Origin: Candidatus Gastranaerophilales bacterium
Lineage (GTDB): Bacteria > Cyanobacteriota > Vampirovibrionia > Gastranaerophilales > Gastranaerophilaceae
Assembly (NCBI GenBank): GCA_944323425.1
Contig: CALUSL010000014.1
Location: 1 to 53,426 of the forward strand
Direction: 5' to 3'
DNA: 53,426 nucleotides
The notes beneath the pieces were generated by a model. It worked only from the letters and a program-made list of their open reading frames with translations. It searched no databases and had not been told where the DNA came from. This document shows positions 761-53,310 of the stretch, piece by piece. Numbering within the stretch: the stretch's first letter is position 1; the number at the start of each line of letters is the position of its first letter. A program made the position numbers and the translations under genes.

Positions 761-789
761 ATAATATTAAGGATATATCCCTGTGTCAA
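761..789 (-). promoter_or_regulatory. Sigma70-type promoter of the tRNA operon
   Basis: On the minus strand there is TTGACA (784-789), a 17-nt spacer and TATTAT (761-766), followed at once by another TATAAT-like hexamer. The predicted start is about 10 nt upstream of tRNA-Thr(TGT). The spacer is ideal and the -35 is perfect. Confidence 0.75.
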
Positions 790-797
790 GTGCCGGA

Positions 798-2363
798 TTA
801 AAAATTCTTTGAAACTTTATCTATAACGTCTTCCCATTGACCGTTTACGGTCTGTCTGTATATATTTATACTGTTATACCAGAGTGTTGTGTCAGAATCC
901 GAAAACCATCTCCATTCAGCAATTCCGGGAAGCATTAGAAATGTTTTGACACCCAGCGCACCTGCAAGATGAGCACTGGCGCTGTCTATCGTAATCATTA
1001 AATCAAGATTTTTCATTGCACATGCCGTGTCGTAAAAATTAGAGATAAATGGAGCAAGATTTTTGAGATTTCTGTGCTCTCTTTTTTGTTCTTCGTCTTT
1101 TTGAAATGAATAAAACATTACGTCTTTATCTAAAATTTTTTGAATTATATCGAACGGAATGGAACGATTTTTGTGTACTCTTTGATTTCCATGCCAGAAA
1201 AGCCCGATTTTTGTTTTATCCGTTTGAAATAAATCAAATTTATTTTCAAAATCGGCGCTCAAATATCCTCCGGCAGCCGGAGTTTTTGAAAAATCTAGAC
1301 CGAGAAGATAAGGTAAATCCATAACACTGGCTGAAAAATCGTAGTCAAGGTCCTCTTTCGATACCTTTATGTCAGCATAAGAGAAATTTTTCTTAAATAA
1401 CAACTCCAACTCAGGCGGAGTAAGAATAATAATGCCCGAAAAAAATTCCTGTAGTTTTGTTATATATCTGGAAAACATTATGTAATCCCCGAATCCGCCG
1501 TCACAAAATATAAGAATTTTTGCATCCTTATGAATTTTTCCATCCCAGCTGTTTTTGTATTGTTTTTTGATTTCAGGGTTTTTTAAAATGTAATGTTTAT
1601 ACCCTTCATAGAATTTTTTCTGCACAAGATATGTCATTCCAAGACTTAGATGTGTCTGTGTATCACCCGGTTTGAATATCAGTGCTTTGTTTAAATGCTC
1701 TTCTGATTTTCTATAATCTTTTTCTTTTCTGTACAAAACTCCCAGATTTTTATGAGCTTCAAAATTATTTTTTATTTTCAATGAAAGCAAATAACAATTT
1801 TTTGCCTGCTGTAAATTCGATTGCTTTTCATAAATCAGACCGAGATTATTTTCTGCAATATAATCACCGCTATCAAGTTTTAGACTGTTTTTATAAAATG
1901 CTTCAGCTGTTTTATAGTCTCCTGACGTATCAGCAAGTTGAGCAATTTCTCTTATAAGAGTCAGATTATTTTTGTCGTTATCGTATAAAATTTTGAGGTA
2001 TTTTATAGCACCGGTATAATTTCCCAGTTTTTTGTAACAGTCAACAATTTTTTCAATACTGTCTTTGTATGGCTCTTTTGCGACAGCCAGTTCATAGTAC
2101 TTAAGTGCATTTGTGTAATCTTGCTTTAAATAATACACCAGCCCGAGATTGTCAGCATACACAGGAGAAGGGTTGAGCTCCATAGCTTTAAGTAAAAAAT
2201 CAACAGCTTCATCGAATTTAGCCTGCTGCATTTTTAAAACACCGAAAAGGTTCAAAACATTAGAATCATCCGGACTGTTCTTTAAAAGTTCGGAATAAAT
2301 TTTTTGCGCTTCTTGCAGCTGACCATTACGATGAAAACTCAATGCTTTTTCAATATCTGTCAT
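798..2363 (-). CDS. TPR protein with C-terminal glycosyltransferase-9-like domain
   Basis: The 521-aa product has about seven tetratricopeptide repeats over residues 1-260. A C-terminal domain follows that resembles the ADP-heptose:LPS heptosyltransferase fold: a GGFGDYIMFSRY nucleotide-loop-like stretch near residue 289, GLFWHGN near 385, and a DSASAHLAGALGV stretch near 461 that matches the donor-site region of GT9. Such TPR-GT9 fusions are common in bacteria as presumed glycan or glycoprotein transferases; the substrate here is unknown. There is no signal peptide, so I expect a cytoplasmic protein. It is the second gene of an operon with the 2368-3000 gene, four bases apart. Confidence 0.8.
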   Translation of the reverse strand: MTDIEKALSFHRNGQLQEAQKIYSELLKNSPDDSNVLNLFGVLKMQQAKFDEAVDFLLKAMELNPSPVYADNLGLVYYLKQDYTNALKYYELAVAKEPYKDSIEKIVDCYKKLGNYTGAIKYLKILYDNDKNNLTLIREIAQLADTSGDYKTAEAFYKNSLKLDSGDYIAENNLGLIYEKQSNLQQAKNCYLLSLKIKNNFEAHKNLGVLYRKEKDYRKSEEHLNKALIFKPGDTQTHLSLGMTYLVQKKFYEGYKHYILKNPEIKKQYKNSWDGKIHKDAKILIFCDGGFGDYIMFSRYITKLQEFFSGIIILTPPELELLFKKNFSYADIKVSKEDLDYDFSASVMDLPYLLGLDFSKTPAAGGYLSADFENKFDLFQTDKTKIGLFWHGNQRVHKNRSIPFDIIQKILDKDVMFYSFQKDEEQKREHRNLKNLAPFISNFYDTACAMKNLDLMITIDSASAHLAGALGVKTFLMLPGIAEWRWFSDSDTTLWYNSINIYRQTVNGQWEDVIDKVSKNF

Positions 2364-33694: not shown

Positions 33695-34147
33695 ATGCAG
33701 ATAAAAGAAATAACAGAAAATAAAAAACAATATTTAGATTTACTGCTCATTGGTGATGAGCAGGAGAGTATGATTGATAAATATTTGCCGGATGGAACAA
33801 TGTTCGTGCTATTTGATGAAGAGCCAAGAGCTGTATGTGTGGTTATTCAAAAATATCCTACAGTTTTGGAAATCAAAAATCTGTCAGTATATCCTGAGTA
33901 TCAAAATAGGGGTTATGGCAGTTTTATGCTTAATCATATTTTTAAAACGTATAGGGATTCAATGAATACGTTTCTTGTTGGGACCGGAGAAAATGAAAAA
34001 ACTATTTCATTTTATATAAAAAACGGGTTTGTGTATTCACACAAAATTGAAAACTTTTTTACAGAAAATTATGACCATCCGATATTTGAAAACGGAATAC
34101 AATTAAAAGATATGATATATTTAAAATTATCGTTTCATCAGTTTTAG
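33695..34147 (+). CDS. GNAT-family N-acetyltransferase
   Basis: The 150-aa product has the GNAT acetyl-CoA loop NRGYGSFMLNHIF near residue 70 preceded by the beta-4 IKNLSVYPEYQ, and a C-terminal FYIKNGFVYS. The substrate is unknown. Its 3' end overlaps the convergent AlkD-like gene by 21 bp. Confidence 0.88.
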   Translation: MQIKEITENKKQYLDLLLIGDEQESMIDKYLPDGTMFVLFDEEPRAVCVVIQKYPTVLEIKNLSVYPEYQNRGYGSFMLNHIFKTYRDSMNTFLVGTGENEKTISFYIKNGFVYSHKIENFFTENYDHPIFENGIQLKDMIYLKLSFHQF

Positions 34148-34813
34148 CTTTTGTTTTGTTTCTTTGTCTACTCTGAATGATTCGCAAATTTTTTGGATGG
34201 ACTTATTGTATGTGAAGTTATCAATTTTTGTACTTTCGAGAAATTTTGTAGTTTGTTGTGGAAATTTTATAAAACAAATAGAAATAAGCCACGCTGCACC
34301 CATTCTTGCGTAATACTTTTCTGATGTAAACGTATTTATCAGTTCAAATATTTCCTCAAGATACTTTTCTTCTATAAAATAGTTTAGCATCATGACATGT
34401 GAAAACCTTATTTCATATTCTTTTTCTGAATATGAAAATTCTCTTATAAAGTTCCAGATTGTATCTTTATGCTCTTTTGTGTATTTTAGTCCGCAGCAAA
34501 AAGTATCACAAATTGACCAGCTATCGATTTCAGGAATAAAATCAGCTATTTTCTCTAAAATATTTGTACAATCCTTTTCTTTTAACAAACCTATTACCAT
34601 ACCCTGAAGCATTTTTTCTTCCATGTATACAGGTGTTATCTTCAAAAAATTTTCCCAGTCCTCTTTATATATTTCTCTGGCAATTTTTCTTAAAACCGGC
34701 AGCCTTACTCCGAGAACATTTTTTACACCAGGCAGTAATGATGATGAAAACTTCTGATATTTTTTATCAGCTTCTGATTGGAGTTTTTTTCGTATCTTTT
34801 TGCTTATGCACAT
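34127..34813 (-). CDS. AlkD-like DNA alkylation repair protein
   Basis: I place the start at the ATG at 34813 with GGAAG upstream; an in-frame TTG is 15 bp earlier. The 228-aa product is a HEAT-like all-helical protein with VRLPVLRKIAREI near 40 and a WSICD near 100, as in AlkD glycosylases, which remove alkylated purines. Catalysis is unproven for this divergent member. Confidence 0.8.
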   Translation of the reverse strand: MCISKKIRKKLQSEADKKYQKFSSSLLPGVKNVLGVRLPVLRKIAREIYKEDWENFLKITPVYMEEKMLQGMVIGLLKEKDCTNILEKIADFIPEIDSWSICDTFCCGLKYTKEHKDTIWNFIREFSYSEKEYEIRFSHVMMLNYFIEEKYLEEIFELINTFTSEKYYARMGAAWLISICFIKFPQQTTKFLESTKIDNFTYNKSIQKICESFRVDKETKQKLKLMKR

Positions 34814-34848
34814 ATTTAATTCTTCCAACAGTCTTATTGAATTTAAAA

Positions 34849-35145
34849 TTAGCTCTGCATTTTGTCCAGAAGTTTTTTTATTTCGAGAATTTTTTCTTTT
34901 GCTTCTTCTTTATTTTCGAAAGATGATGCAACACAATTTTCAAGATGAGTTTTTAATATATTGCTTTCGACATGTTTGATAGCTGAGCGTACAGCTTTAA
35001 GTTGAATGATGATATCCGGACAGTATCTCTGTTCTTCTATCATCTTTTTAATTCCCTCAAGCTGACCTATAGCCCTGTTAATACGAGGGATTTCTTGTTT
35101 GTGGCTGGGATTTTCAGTAGAATTTTTCATATCACAATTATACAT
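34849..35145 (-). CDS. csoR: CsoR-type copper-sensing transcriptional repressor
   Basis: The 98-aa all-helical protein has the CsoR ligand set C42, H67 and C71 (RYCPDI and THLENC), which in the family reads Cu(I), and the RINRAIGQLEGIKKMI helix 1. A second possible start is M6. It lies behind the metallothionein-like gene, separated by a terminator-like hairpin, and two CsoR-type operators sit upstream of both genes. It presumably represses its own operon until copper is bound. Confidence 0.88.
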   Translation of the reverse strand: MYNCDMKNSTENPSHKQEIPRINRAIGQLEGIKKMIEEQRYCPDIIIQLKAVRSAIKHVESNILKTHLENCVASSFENKEEAKEKILEIKKLLDKMQS

Positions 35146-35174
35146 AAAAAACGGGGACGGTAAAAACTTCCCCG
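35146..35174 (-). terminator. Terminator/attenuator between the metallothionein-like gene and csoR
   Basis: On the minus strand CGGGGA-N11-TCCCCG is followed by six T (35146-35151) that run straight into the csoR ATG. It should end most transcripts after the small gene and allow low read-through into csoR. Confidence 0.65.
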
Positions 35175-35189
35175 CTGTTTTAATAAAAT

Positions 35190-35309
35190 TTATTTTTTAG
35201 GTGTTTCTTTGCATTCCGGCGGACAATTGCATTTGTCTTCTGTGCAGGTGCAGTTGTCTCCGCAGGTGCAATTAATGCATTTGCAATGTGGGTTTGAACA
35301 ATTTGCCAT
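35190..35309 (-). CDS. Metallothionein-like protein, 39 aa
   Basis: A short minus-strand ORF starts at ATG 35309 with a strong AGGAGG five bases upstream and ends at TAA. The product begins MANCSNPHCKCIN and has ten cysteines (4, 9, 11, 14, 16, 20, 22, 27, 29, 33), mostly as CxC and CxxC, plus one His, and no aromatic residue. This is a metallothionein composition; it should bind Cu(I) or Zn(II). It is the promoter-proximal gene of the CsoR-controlled unit. It is not clearly of the cyanobacterial SmtA family. Confidence 0.85.
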   Translation of the reverse strand: MANCSNPHCKCINCTCGDNCTCTEDKCNCPPECKETPKK

Positions 35310-35328
35310 AACAGCCTCCTTATCTTTG

Positions 35329-35384
35329 TACCCTGTGGGGGTATTTTATAACTACATTATACCCTTATGGGGTATAGTTGTCAA
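35329..35384 (-). promoter_or_regulatory. Promoter with two CsoR-type operators
   Basis: On the minus strand TTGACA (35379-35384), an exact 17-nt spacer and TATAAT (35356-35361) form a consensus sigma70 promoter. The dyad TACCC-N4-GGGTA type operator ATACCC-TTAT-GGGGTAT (35359-35375) fills the spacer. A second TACCC-TGTG-GGGGTA (35329-35343) lies just after the predicted start. Both match CsoR/RcnR-family sites. Confidence 0.85.
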
Positions 35385-35533
35385 TTGGCTGTACAAATTT
35401 GTTGTTGCAAAATTAAAAAATAGCAATACTAGCCGATCAATATGAATTATCAGGCTTAAAGTAAACAAATCTTTACAAAATAACAAAAAATTTTTTTAGT
35501 ATTTTTAATATCTTTAACAAGAGGATAAGCGTC

Positions 35534-38500
35534 GTGAAAATACAAACTATTTTTAATTATAATCTACAAAATAAAAAAACACCGAATACAAGTAATTTAA
35601 AAAATATTCAAACATATCAAAATACTCCCGGGGTATTTTCTACAAAAATTTCATTTAAAGGAGCTGATGTAAATCAAAATCAAATACTTCTTTTATCAGC
35701 AGAATGCGCTCCTTATTCTGTTTCAGGTGGGCTGGGGTCTGTAATTTGTGATATGAGCAAAGCCTACAAAAAAGAATATCCTAATAAAGATATTAGAATT
35801 ATGATTCCTTTTTACAACGCAAGCTGTAAATCAGAAAATCCTTTACCAATTTATACCGTCAATGGTGTGAAAAATAATACAGGTGATGATAATTTAAAAT
35901 TTCAGCTGGAAAATACAGGTGTAGAAACCGAGTTTCGTTATGGAGTGAGAAAAAGCCAAGCCAAACTATACAAATGCCAAAAACCTCAAAATGGAGTAAC
36001 TACATATTTTCTGTACTTGCCGGAACTAAAAGGAATGAAAAAAGAATACGATTTAGATGACTATTCTATGTTTGAGGCATATTGTGCTTTTAGCAATGCA
36101 GCTGTGGCTATACTTGAGAAAATGAAAAATTCTAAAGAAAATTTCAATCCTGCTATTTTGCATACAAATGATTGGCATACTACATTTGCTGCTATTGCTT
36201 GCAAAAACACTCACAAAGAAACGAAATCAATACACGGATTGCTTAATGCTCATGCTCATTTTCAGTGCCGTTTACAACCTTTTGCTGCAGCACTCAATTG
36301 TTTTAATGAAAAACAAATAGAAAAATTAATCTCAAACAATGAATTTAAAAAAGAATTAATGAATCTTATCTTTGATAACAAGGATATTCTAATTAATAAA
36401 AAAATATTAGAAGAAACTAATACTCAAGATTATGGAAAAGAACTCAACAACAAAAAGTTTATAATGAATGTTCTTGTTAATGTTGCAGAAAATTATCAAA
36501 AACTCTTTTCTGACAGTAAAAATGATCTTACTTATTCTTGTATCAACAATGTTATTAGAAAAGAGTTCAAAGATATATGTTGGGATGAAAATAATAATTT
36601 CAATGCAACAGTGAATGCATTAAAAAATGCAGATAGTTGGTTTACTATTTCCAAAACACATTTAAACGAACTTTTAACGCAACCTGAATTTTCATCATTA
36701 TCTTTATACAACATGATGAGAGTTAAACTGGATAAGGGGACATCAATTCTAAATAAAATTGATGAAGCTCGATATGATTCACAAAATCCAGAACAGGTAT
36801 ACAAACCGTATAATGTTGAAAACGTTGAAGATGGTAAAGCTCGAAACAAGGTATTTTTATTTCAACAAATGACAAAATCTAATATTTCACGAAAAACTTT
36901 TGATAAAAAAATTATAAACAACCCCGAAAACGCTATTGTTTTAGGTTATCTTGATTCTAAATACTTTTCGTACCCTTTAGCTATCAATATAAGCCGTTTC
37001 GATACAAACCAAAAGGGTTCTGATATAGCAATGAAATCAATTGAACTTTTGCTAAATCAAAATCAGAAAATTAACTTTGTACTTGCACTACCAGGAATAA
37101 AAACATTAAACCCTCAATTATTAGAAAGTTTTGAAAAAAATGTAATAAATAAATATCCAGGTAGAATTGTTTTAATTGATGCTTATGTACCAATAAATGA
37201 ATATGCAGCAGCTGCGGACTTTTCCATAATTCCCAGTCGTTCGGAAACTTGCGGGCTTGTTGGTTATCAATCTATGCGAATGGGGGCTATACCTATTAGT
37301 GCACCTATCGGCAGTATGAATGACTGTCTAATTACTCCATATCACGATATAAAAAAAGCTATGGGCTTTAAAGCGCCGCTTCATTTTCTTAATTGTTCAA
37401 ATCCTGCAAAAGTACTTGCAAATACAATCAGTACAGCTATTGATTTTTATTATGATGAACCACAACAGCTTAGCAGAATGAAAAAAAATTGCATGCTTTA
37501 TGACAGCAGTTGGAAACCTGCGGTAAAAGAACAAAATGAGCTATATGAAAATGTTCTTAACAACAAAACAATAGGAAAACTAAAAATAAACGATCTTAAA
37601 GAAACATCAGAGAAGCATAATCTTAAAATATTGAGAATGACGGATTTGCCTGATTTGCCCAAAGCTGACGTTTTAGTTTTGCTTGCGCACCCTGATGACG
37701 AAATATTCTTTCTTCCCATTATGAAAAAATTAGAAGAAGGCAAAAGTGTTCAATTTGTCTATTCCGCGCTTGGCGAAAAGGGACATTACAAAGCAGGCGC
37801 TCCCAGCACAAAAGAAGAATTAATAAAACATAGAGAAATTGAACTACTTGATGCTCTTAATGAATTGGGAATTAAAAGATCACCAATAGTTCTTGATATT
37901 CCTGATTTAGAATTTTACAAAGACGAATATGCTCAAAAAATATCGAAAGCTTATGAAAAAATATTAGAAACTATATCACCTCAAGAAGTCTGGTCGTTTG
38001 GTCCGGATGGAATTACCGGTAATGGCGACCATAAAATAACAGGGAAAATTGCTTTTGATAATGTAAGAAACTATAACGAAAACTACAATAAAAATATCAA
38101 ACTATTTCAACCGGCTCTGACCAAAAGTGATGCTCAAAGATTAAAAGACTATTCATCATACACAACAGATGCATTTGATTTTGTTGCACCTTCTGATGTT
38201 CATGTACCATACCAACAAAACGTTTCTAAATATAAAGAAAAATTAGAAAATGCGCTAAATAAACATAAATCTCAATGGACGCAAAATGAAGTTAAGGCAA
38301 TTAGAGATTTCTACAATAATACACCTGTTAAATATGTATCCAGAAGTCAATTTCCTGAAGTTGATGCAATGTCAAATCCCTGGAAAATAAGAAAAGAAGA
38401 TTTTAGCAAAAAATACGGTCAAGATTTTGAAGAATTTAATGGAGGTGTATCATTTAAGCCATATGGGCTAAATTACAAAGTGAATCTATACCTTGCTGAT

Positions 38501-38821
38501 TTCAACACGAATAAGAACAGGCTTTGGATTGAAACATCTGCCTTTAAAGACCAAATAGCAGCTCCTGAATTATTAAGCAGCATATTGAAAAATACAGGTA
38601 GAATCATTTCTATACCTCAATTTGGTGATGTAAAAACTTTCGATGTTGTACTATATAAAAAAGAAAATCCAAACAAGAAAGTAAAAATTTCTATACCCGT
38701 AAATGAAGTTTCTAATATTCTTGCTTTCGTGCCAACTTTGACAGAAAATCCTGAAAAAGCTGTAATGGCAATAAAAAGAGAGAATCCTTTTTCAAGAATA
38801 AAATTAGCTGATTTATATTAA
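35534..38821 (+). CDS. Glycogen-synthase-like / PIG-L deacetylase fusion with N-terminal ISFK leader
   Basis: The 1095-aa protein starts at GTG behind AAGAGGATAAGCGTC. Residues 1-45 are a disordered Asn/Thr/Lys-rich leader with ISFKG at 39-43. Residues 50-680 resemble GT5 glycogen/starch synthase (AECAPYSVSGGLGSV, HTNDWHT, NISRFDTNQKGSD, PSRSETCGL), although the usual K-x-GGL lysine is absent. A PIG-L/LmbE domain follows (AHPDDE near 718, GDHKITG near 831), and a C-terminal region with a second SFK at 973-975. The fusion of a glucan-type glycosyltransferase and an N-deacetylase is unusual. Substrates unknown; ADP-glucose use is doubtful without the lysine. Confidence 0.8.
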   Translation: MKIQTIFNYNLQNKKTPNTSNLKNIQTYQNTPGVFSTKISFKGADVNQNQILLLSAECAPYSVSGGLGSVICDMSKAYKKEYPNKDIRIMIPFYNASCKSENPLPIYTVNGVKNNTGDDNLKFQLENTGVETEFRYGVRKSQAKLYKCQKPQNGVTTYFLYLPELKGMKKEYDLDDYSMFEAYCAFSNAAVAILEKMKNSKENFNPAILHTNDWHTTFAAIACKNTHKETKSIHGLLNAHAHFQCRLQPFAAALNCFNEKQIEKLISNNEFKKELMNLIFDNKDILINKKILEETNTQDYGKELNNKKFIMNVLVNVAENYQKLFSDSKNDLTYSCINNVIRKEFKDICWDENNNFNATVNALKNADSWFTISKTHLNELLTQPEFSSLSLYNMMRVKLDKGTSILNKIDEARYDSQNPEQVYKPYNVENVEDGKARNKVFLFQQMTKSNISRKTFDKKIINNPENAIVLGYLDSKYFSYPLAINISRFDTNQKGSDIAMKSIELLLNQNQKINFVLALPGIKTLNPQLLESFEKNVINKYPGRIVLIDAYVPINEYAAAADFSIIPSRSETCGLVGYQSMRMGAIPISAPIGSMNDCLITPYHDIKKAMGFKAPLHFLNCSNPAKVLANTISTAIDFYYDEPQQLSRMKKNCMLYDSSWKPAVKEQNELYENVLNNKTIGKLKINDLKETSEKHNLKILRMTDLPDLPKADVLVLLAHPDDEIFFLPIMKKLEEGKSVQFVYSALGEKGHYKAGAPSTKEELIKHREIELLDALNELGIKRSPIVLDIPDLEFYKDEYAQKISKAYEKILETISPQEVWSFGPDGITGNGDHKITGKIAFDNVRNYNENYNKNIKLFQPALTKSDAQRLKDYSSYTTDAFDFVAPSDVHVPYQQNVSKYKEKLENALNKHKSQWTQNEVKAIRDFYNNTPVKYVSRSQFPEVDAMSNPWKIRKEDFSKKYGQDFEEFNGGVSFKPYGLNYKVNLYLADFNTNKNRLWIETSAFKDQIAAPELLSSILKNTGRIISIPQFGDVKTFDVVLYKKENPNKKVKISIPVNEVSNILAFVPTLTENPEKAVMAIKRENPFSRIKLADLY

Positions 38822-52250: not shown

Positions 52251-52258
52251 CTTAAATC

Positions 52259-52345
52259 CGGAGAGGGGGGGATTCGAACCCCCGGTGGAGTTGCCCCCAC
52301 ACAAACGTTCCAGGTTTGCACCTTAAACCACTCGGACACCTCTCC
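52259..52345 (-). tRNA. tRNA-Ser (GGA)
   Basis: This is an 87-nt class II minus-strand tRNA: acceptor GGAGAGG/CCTCTCC, discriminator G, anticodon loop CTGGAACG (GGA), long variable arm GTGGGGGCAACTCCAC and T-arm GGTTCGAATCC. CCA is not encoded. Confidence 0.95.
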
Positions 52346-52380
52346 TTGGTGGTGTAGAATTATTTTAACACAAAAAAATT

Positions 52381-52929
52381 TTAATCAGAAATAATTTCTA
52401 TTTCTCCTATTTTTTTACCTTTTCTATTGAAGCCTTCTTTTCCTATCCAGTGGCTGAGTAGCTTCCTGTTTTTGTCAAACAAAAATCGTTCTTCTTCTGA
52501 TACGTAAAAGCCTACGGCAAGCAGTTCACCATTATAGCTATATCTTAAAATCTTATATGGAAAATCCTCCATCTCTGAACCTATATCAACAAACAAAAGG
52601 TTATTAATCAAGGTTGAATAGTAATAGGTAAACTCTGGTTTTTCTAAATAAGTAACAGCGTAGGCCTTTATAGCACCAATTTTAAAATATTGTACAATCC
52701 TGTCTGAAAAAGTCTTTTCTGATTTAAAAGAATCTTTATTTTCTCTGTAATTTTTATCCTGAATTTTATCTTTAAATTGTTCCATTGAAATTTTTTGTTC
52801 AACGCCGCTAAATGCTTCTTCTCGTGCTGTTTCTTCAGTATATGAAACATTTCCTTCAAGAACCATGCCTGCACTTGCAGGGAGCATAACAAAGATAAGT
52901 ACTAATAGAGAACATAAGAATTTTTTCAT
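52381..52929 (-). CDS. Secreted hypothetical protein, 182 aa
   Basis: The N-terminus MKKFLCSLLVLIFVMLPASA is a clear signal peptide with predicted cleavage after residue 20. The mature part is soluble, with a YSYNGELLAVGFYVSEEERFLF stretch (GELLAVGFYV near 135). It is not recognised. A TATAAT (52936-52941) ends six bases before the ATG, so the mRNA may be leaderless. tRNA-Ser follows in the same direction. Confidence 0.75.
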   Translation of the reverse strand: MKKFLCSLLVLIFVMLPASAGMVLEGNVSYTEETAREEAFSGVEQKISMEQFKDKIQDKNYRENKDSFKSEKTFSDRIVQYFKIGAIKAYAVTYLEKPEFTYYYSTLINNLLFVDIGSEMEDFPYKILRYSYNGELLAVGFYVSEEERFLFDKNRKLLSHWIGKEGFNRKGKKIGEIEIISD

Positions 52930-52990
52930 AAAAATATTATATCAAAATTTTTTGATAAAAAATATTTGAAATTTTTTATTGTTTATTTAA

Positions 52991-53004
52991 TAATGATATC
53001 ATTA
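52991..53004. promoter_or_regulatory. 14-bp perfect palindrome
   Basis: TAATGATATCATTA lies between the divergent secreted-protein gene and tRNA-Met, about 62 bp and 29 bp from their starts. It could be an operator. With A/T-rich sequence this may also be chance. Confidence 0.3.
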
Positions 53005-53033
53005 AGTAGAAAATTAAATATTAATAAAAAGAT

Positions 53034-53107
53034 GGCATAGTAGCTCAGTTGGTCAGAGCGCTCGGCTCATACCCGGGAGGTCACTGGTTCGAACCCAGTC
53101 TATGCTA
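53034..53107 (+). tRNA. tRNA-Met (CAT), elongator type
   Basis: This is a 74-nt plus-strand tRNA: acceptor GGCATAG/CTATGCT (first pair G-T), discriminator A, anticodon loop GCTCATACC, T-arm TGGTTCGAACCCA. The anticodon CAT could also serve an Ile lysidine tRNA; the sequence looks like elongator Met. A terminator follows. Confidence 0.9.
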
Positions 53108-53125
53108 TTTTTACTTTTTAAAAAT

Positions 53126-53158
53126 AAAAAAACGGAAACGATGAGTTTTCGTTTTTTT
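53126..53158 (+). terminator. Terminator of tRNA-Met
   Basis: AAAAAAACG-g-AAAC-GATGA-GTTT-t-CGTTTTTTT forms a stem with one internal mismatch and a T-run. Confidence 0.75.
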
Positions 53159-53169
53159 ATTAGATATGA

Positions 53170-53228
53170 CCGCCGTTACTGAGCAAGCGCAGCTTGCGCA
53201 GTGGAGCAATCTTTGATTGCACAGGCGG
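53170..53228. repeat. Y-shaped inverted-repeat element behind tRNA-Met
   Basis: Outer arms CCGCC (53170-53174) and GGCGG (53224-53228) enclose two perfect hairpins: GCAAGC-GCA-GCTTGC (53183-53197) and GCAATC-TTT-GATTGC (53206-53220). It has no coding content and resembles a repetitive intergenic unit. Confidence 0.6.
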
Positions 53229-53239
53229 AATTAAAGAAA

Positions 53240-53310
53240 ACCAGTGACCTCCCTGCCGCTAAAAATCAGAATACGCAGGCTTTGCCCGTTTAGTCGAACC
53301 CAGTCTATGC
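53240..53310. repeat. Scrambled partial copies of tRNA-Met
   Basis: 53240-53253 is an exact inverted copy of tRNA-Met 53075-53088 (14 nt), and 53294-53310 is an exact direct copy of its 3' end 53089-53105 (17 nt, 205 bp apart). The two pieces are contiguous in the tRNA but here are 40 bp apart and in opposite orientation. Confidence 0.85.

Follow-up and report, generated by a model that had tools for sequence, protein, structure and literature searches.

A two-gene locus of a Candidatus Gastranaerophilales genome (Melainabacteria, a lineage sister to the cyanobacteria) couples a short, cysteine-rich, metallothionein-like protein to a CsoR-family repressor, under a promoter that carries a conserved CsoR-type operator within its spacer. 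We consider it rather probable, at roughly three chances in four, that this pair, mt-csoR, constitutes a pump-free copper buffering module, in which Cu(I) would relieve the repression of a metal-sequestering peptide. Both genes lie on the minus strand of the window, that is, the whole 53,426-nucleotide stretch of DNA that was analysed.

The regulator gene, csoR (34849..35130, minus strand), encodes a 93-aa protein that matches the CsoR/RcnR repressor family PF02583 (E 1.1e-25; 90.3 bits against a curated cut-off of 22.8) and whose ligand sites align with those of the solved Cu(I)-CsoR of Geobacillus thermodenitrificans (4m1p). The Cu(I) ligands Cys37, His62 and Cys66 (numbering of the 93-aa protein), as well as Tyr36 preceding the first ligand cysteine, are invariant in all 56 distinct CsoRs linked to mt. 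An AlphaFold model obtained with 14 sequences (pLDDT 88) shows the family's three-helix fold: the 18 best PDB matches were all CsoR, InrS, CstR or FrmR, with a probability of 1.00, at E-values of only 3e-3 and TM-scores of 0.57-0.70. In a short and poorly resolved tree, the linked proteins stand apart from most other CsoRs. The Cys-His-Cys set, Tyr36, the fold and the type-2 operator described below indicate that the linked CsoRs likely belong to the Cu(I)-sensing branch.

The same 56 proteins share a further invariant residue, His10, embedded in a motif near P-x-H-x4-P-R-x-N-R; at this position, the 21 other CsoRs compared from the lineage have no histidine but most commonly K, T, D or N. The linked CsoRs may therefore sense a different metal. 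The best surviving alternative accordingly keeps the circuit and changes its inducer: His10 would act as a fourth ligand, as in RcnR and InrS, and the repressor would respond to Zn, Cd or Ni instead of, or in addition to, Cu(I). In the model, helix 1 starts at residue 11, directly after His10, which places the histidine at the same terminus that supplies the additional ligand in RcnR and InrS, and InrS is among the nearest folds. The register, however, is different: the N-terminal ligands of RcnR and InrS, counted from the known sequences, lie 17 residues before the conserved glycine, whereas His10 aligns 12 residues before the equivalent Gly22. Moreover, Tyr36-Cys37 is a copper-type pair, where InrS has Pro-Cys, and the genome already encodes a Zn/Cd pump with an ArsR of its own. 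An inducer other than, or in addition to, copper is, in our view, unlikely.

That pump is the single P1B ATPase found in the genome (G000:C30), encoded divergently from the ArsR gene. It was dismissed as a candidate copper pump and assigned to the Zn/Cd type on its scores, which exceed the cut-off of TIGR01512 (496 bits against 313.5) and fall below that of TIGR01511 (367 against 397). The exporter search, which covered P1B ATPases, recovered none of the CopA type, and HMA domains were likewise not found, in this genome, as represented by one assembly that is 99.85% complete in 47 contigs. Consequently, mt is the only recognisable target of CsoR in the genome, and mt-csoR seems to take the place of the customary copper pump. 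Among ten mt-positive relatives, only one (G065) encodes an ATPase scoring over the copper cut-off; in other relatives (G011 and G048), a different csoR adjoins a copper-type ATPase.

The sequence-only reading had pointed to a 39-aa, ten-cysteine ORF ahead of csoR, and this ORF is indeed present (35190..35309, minus strand; ORF list, alignment and homologue searches), with csoR immediately downstream on the same strand. The protein is short and Cys-rich, contains CxC motifs and has no aromatic residues other than one His; all 10 Cys are invariant across seven aligned relatives, and conservation extends beyond them to the CSNP and CGDN motifs. By its cysteine content and the invariance of its cysteines, it looks like a metallothionein, although the metal of a metallothionein can rarely be read from its sequence. 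Profile searches returned no Pfam or NCBIfam family for the peptide. Membership in the SmtA/BmtA family (PF02069) was rejected, as there was no Pfam match and a PDB search to E 10 retrieved no SmtA chain; composition and low-complexity filters penalise Cys-rich queries, and may hide metallothionein matches in the databases. The small size of the peptide, its conservation beyond the cysteines and the lack of a family claiming it would also suit a chaperone or signalling peptide that supplies CsoR or an exporter with Cu(I) rather than storing the metal. We regard this function as quite improbable: the peptide lacks the HMA fold, no Cu exporter was seen for it to serve, and its alphaproteobacterial relatives are longer, with up to ~20 Cys and repeats, as would befit a storage capacity.

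The mt promoter consists of a -35 hexamer TTGACA (35379..35384, minus strand; sequence match) and a -10 hexamer TATAAT (35356..35361, minus strand) separated by a 17-bp spacer, with both hexamers kept in relatives; in the promoter scan it matched the consensus at 12 of 12 positions, in agreement with the earlier claim. The spacer is filled by the first operator, O1, TACCCCATAAGGGTA (35360..35374, minus strand), the final TA of which provides the first two bases of the -10 element. A second operator, O2, TACCCCCACAGGGTA (35329..35343, minus strand), occupies approximately +7 to +21, which bears out the prediction of a second dyad near the start of the transcript; the two sites, both recognised by motif search and conservation, are 31 bp, or about three helical turns, apart. 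Further downstream, a Shine-Dalgarno sequence, AAGGAGG, can be read off (35315..35321, minus strand) 5 nt 5' of the mt ATG. The spacer dyad itself had thus been predicted correctly, but the formula given for it, TACCC-N4-GGGGTA, fits only one strand of each site, whereas TACCC-N5-GGGTA describes both strands of O1 and O2. Both sites conform to the published type-2 CsoR consensus, ATATACCCCTNAGGGGTATAT, in which TAC-N9-GTA is essential, including the G/C tracts (PMC3902906).

With at most one mismatch allowed, the window contains two occurrences of the operator motif, where 0.26 would be expected from shuffled sequences, and a whole-genome motif search identified O1 and O2 as the sole exact copies in 2.03 Mb. 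This excess in the window and uniqueness in the genome, together with the conservation across species, rule out that the dyads arose by chance. Distant CsoR-controlled genes were likewise ruled out: there is no further exact operator, and matches with one mismatch are no commoner genome-wide than those of a reversed control pattern. By pattern, O1 is found in the spacer of 39 of the 41 distinct Gastranaerophilales promoters, and the other two (L052 and L073) carry it with one base changed; it is also present in 9/15 distinct alphaproteobacterial promoters and in the Elusimicrobiaceae promoter. A second site accompanies it in 26/41 of the Gastranaerophilales promoters, mostly 34 bp away. O1 is therefore the fixed part of the arrangement, and O2 is optional.

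In this lineage, csoR apparently has a conserved promoter of its own, located after a terminator, and is predicted to be transcribed as a leaderless mRNA. The terminator-like hairpin between mt and csoR (CGGGGA/TCCCCG followed by T6; 35146..35174, minus strand), recognised by its conservation, eluded a consensus terminator scan owing to its long loop; most Gastranaerophilales loci keep, between the two genes, a hairpin followed by a T-run, though of differing sequence. The -10 element of csoR, TATAAT (35137..35142, minus strand; locus alignment), lies 6 nt 5' of the csoR ATG, and TATAAT-N6-ATG (once N7) recurs at csoR throughout the Gastranaerophilales loci, with the exception of L082 and L083, in which csoR directly abuts mt without the terminator-TATAAT arrangement. 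The first in-frame ATG, at 35145, was rejected as the start since this codon falls between the T-run of the terminator and the -10 element; because it precedes the latter, and the conserved start follows TATAAT by 6 nt, translation most likely begins at ATG 35130. In 226 ORFs of the lineage, taken from the window and many Gastranaerophilales loci, TATAAT-like hexamers were counted 13 and 8 times at 6 and 7 nt before the ATG, compared with ~3 elsewhere. Such a peak is expected of leaderless genes and suggests that leaderless mRNAs are common in the lineage. In most Alphaproteobacteria, mt and csoR are separated by only a few bases, as if forming a single operon. No operator was seen at the promoter of csoR in this locus, which makes tight self-regulation improbable, read-through aside; csoR probably escapes such control here.

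Taken together, these elements suggest the following circuit. Apo-CsoR would be maintained at a low steady level from its leaderless promoter, supplemented by any read-through from mt, and would occupy both the spacer site O1 and, at the transcript start, O2, thereby blocking RNA polymerase. When cytosolic Cu(I) rises, the Cys37/His62/Cys66 site would be filled and CsoR would leave the DNA; the freed, strong consensus promoter and the good ribosome-binding site would then allow synthesis of the ten-Cys peptide, which may wrap Cu(I) in thiolate clusters. Once the copper is trapped, apo-CsoR would re-form and close the loop. What is observed is the anatomy of the locus, its conservation, the ligand residues and the lack of a recognisable CopA or HMA protein in this genome; we infer the DNA binding by CsoR, the role of Cu(I) as the inducer, the metal binding by the peptide and the protection of the cell.

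The pair is kept well beyond this genome. The gene mt was found in 10 of 99 relatives, and all nine loci retrieved around close orthologues of csoR, that of the present genome among them, have both genes intact; one of the nine mt genes has a TTG start. A search with mt alone across 84,980 species genomes yielded 80 loci that were kept. The expectation that the small ORF would recur beside csoR in relatives was borne out, with csoR located downstream of mt in 65/80 loci: 45 of the Gastranaerophilales type, including a few under other record titles, 19 from Alphaproteobacteria and one from Elusimicrobiaceae. The arrangement of mt, csoR and operator is thus retained across dozens of gut species. 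It is at the same time patchy: of 292 genomes from the phylum, 19 have it. Bins may contain misassigned contigs, as exemplified by L054, which is titled Alphaproteobacteria yet carries a Gastranaerophilales-type block. Literature searches on the mt-csoR pair in Melainabacteria found nothing on it. The other 15 loci have no visible csoR; two of these run into a contig edge, and the remainder belong mainly to Fimbriimonadaceae, Bacteroidota, two Firmicutes and some Alphaproteobacteria. That the dyads serve another regulator, with csoR residing beside mt by chance or through shared transfer, might be argued from these 15 loci and from the separate promoter of csoR, but can hardly be entertained given that the dyads are textbook CsoR type-2 sites, unique in the genome, and were not seen in the csoR-less loci, a contig end excepted.

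Other small peptides accompany csoR genes in the group. At L134 of G026 (772-882, minus strand, and 1005-1343, plus strand), a different peptide with 9 Cys is encoded opposite a divergent csoR (34% identity), with one CsoR-type site before each of the two genes; this is apparently a separate CsoR-metallothionein pairing in the same family. Small peptides near other csoR genes of the class (L022:1912-2052, L032:1181-1306 and L021:287-439) combine one likely membrane helix with a Cys-rich tail, e.g. CLCSPCHCNPCHCK, and are possibly membrane-bound metal binders.

In ~20 Gastranaerophilales species, mt-csoR lies within a block that is 97-99% identical among many of them, while the right flanks of the block are unrelated between species. 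The pair thus appears to be cargo of a small transposon-like element of ~2.3-2.8 kb (L049:2889-5632, with equivalents in L042, L045, L046, L048, L050, L051, L053 and L054). The element has fixed ends, TGTAGTTTTTTGTCC... on the left and ...TCTTTTACA on the right, with short subterminal repeats at both. It is flanked by 5-bp direct repeats in L049, L051 and L054, and, with a second right end chosen, also in L048; the 5-mers flanking the remaining copies are unmatched. Besides mt-csoR, the cargo comprises a metallo-hydrolase-like gene and a gene for an HxlR-type regulator, both named by eye from their sequences, and no transposase was identified in the element. Nor were plasmid copies of the module found. 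The window locus was rejected as a member, as a search around it did not detect the element ends. Elsewhere in the same genome, the right-end sequence is present in two exact copies, at G000:C1:69340-69362 and G000:C17:14261-14283 (L137 and L138), the former (L137) adjoining unrelated genes.

Colinearity between the window and a congener (35385 versus L060:4926) ends exactly at the -35 element of the mt promoter. The upstream DNA of the congener matches window positions 52254-53310, which implies an insertion, loss or rearrangement of ~17 kb at 35385. An AlkD-like DNA-alkylation-repair gene (34127-34828) adjoins mt-csoR both here and in the congener, and is also found near mt-csoR in two Alphaproteobacteria (L093 and L098). 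On the other side, a 1095-aa ORF (35534-38821) is a fusion of a starch-synthase-like and a GlcNAc-PI de-N-acetylase (PIG-L/BshB-like) domain.

Export is generally considered the first line of copper defence in most bacteria. The module described here is widespread among gut bacteria. In the present genome, where no copper pump is visible, its putative copper sensor has no recognisable target but a trapping peptide. The spread of the module from species to species has taken place partly within a small mobile element, and it adds a metallothionein family that the Pfam and NCBIfam models do not recognise. A bolder proposal, which we advance tentatively and deem somewhat doubtful, is that the His10-marked CsoR subfamily and the mt family form a self-contained, transferable, pump-free gut module in which His10 retunes sensing. 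In this subfamily, the effect of a single added residue on metal choice could be tested directly, and the mt promoter, being clean and compact, would be usable for a biosensor.

Of the initial proposal, three points are supported: the metallothionein-like nature of the protein, the identity of the regulator as a CsoR bearing the Cu(I) ligands, and the conservation of the spacer operator. The notion that the locus represents an inherited alternative to SmtB in the phylum did not hold, considering its patchy presence there and its occurrence in gut Alphaproteobacteria as well. Nor is a CsoR-run metallothionein new in kind: in M. tuberculosis, the CsoR paralogue RicR controls the Cu metallothionein gene mymT (PMC4801387), and dual sites are common, being present in 44% of CsoR targets in gut Firmicutes, where the regulon consists of csoR and copA (PMC4938975). 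What is new is the one-target, pump-free arrangement, the mt family, the His10 CsoR subfamily and their spread.

Among known systems, RicR-MymT is similar in placing a CsoR-family repressor over a metallothionein (PMC4801387), but the RicR regulon comprises several scattered genes, mmcO among them, and the mycobacterial CsoR has its own copper pump operon, whereas here csoR adjoins mt, its only recognisable target, and no copper pump was found. The CsoR-copA/copZA systems of Firmicutes and Streptomyces share the repressor family, the ligands, the operator type and the common occurrence of dual sites (PMC4938975); here, by contrast, the target is a metallothionein rather than an ATPase, csoR has no operator of its own, and the operators are spaced by 31-34 bp, as opposed to 26, 36-38 and 51/56 in those systems. 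The nickel sensors InrS and RcnR resemble the linked CsoR in fold and in having an extra N-terminal histidine, but His10 lies at another distance from the core, and the copper-type Tyr-Cys is retained. Finally, the cyanobacterial SmtB-SmtA/BmtA pairs likewise have a repressor gene next to a metallothionein gene and a metal-relieved repression, which for mt we infer; their repressor, however, is of the ArsR type, and their metallothionein belongs to a different family, unmatched by the ten-Cys peptide.
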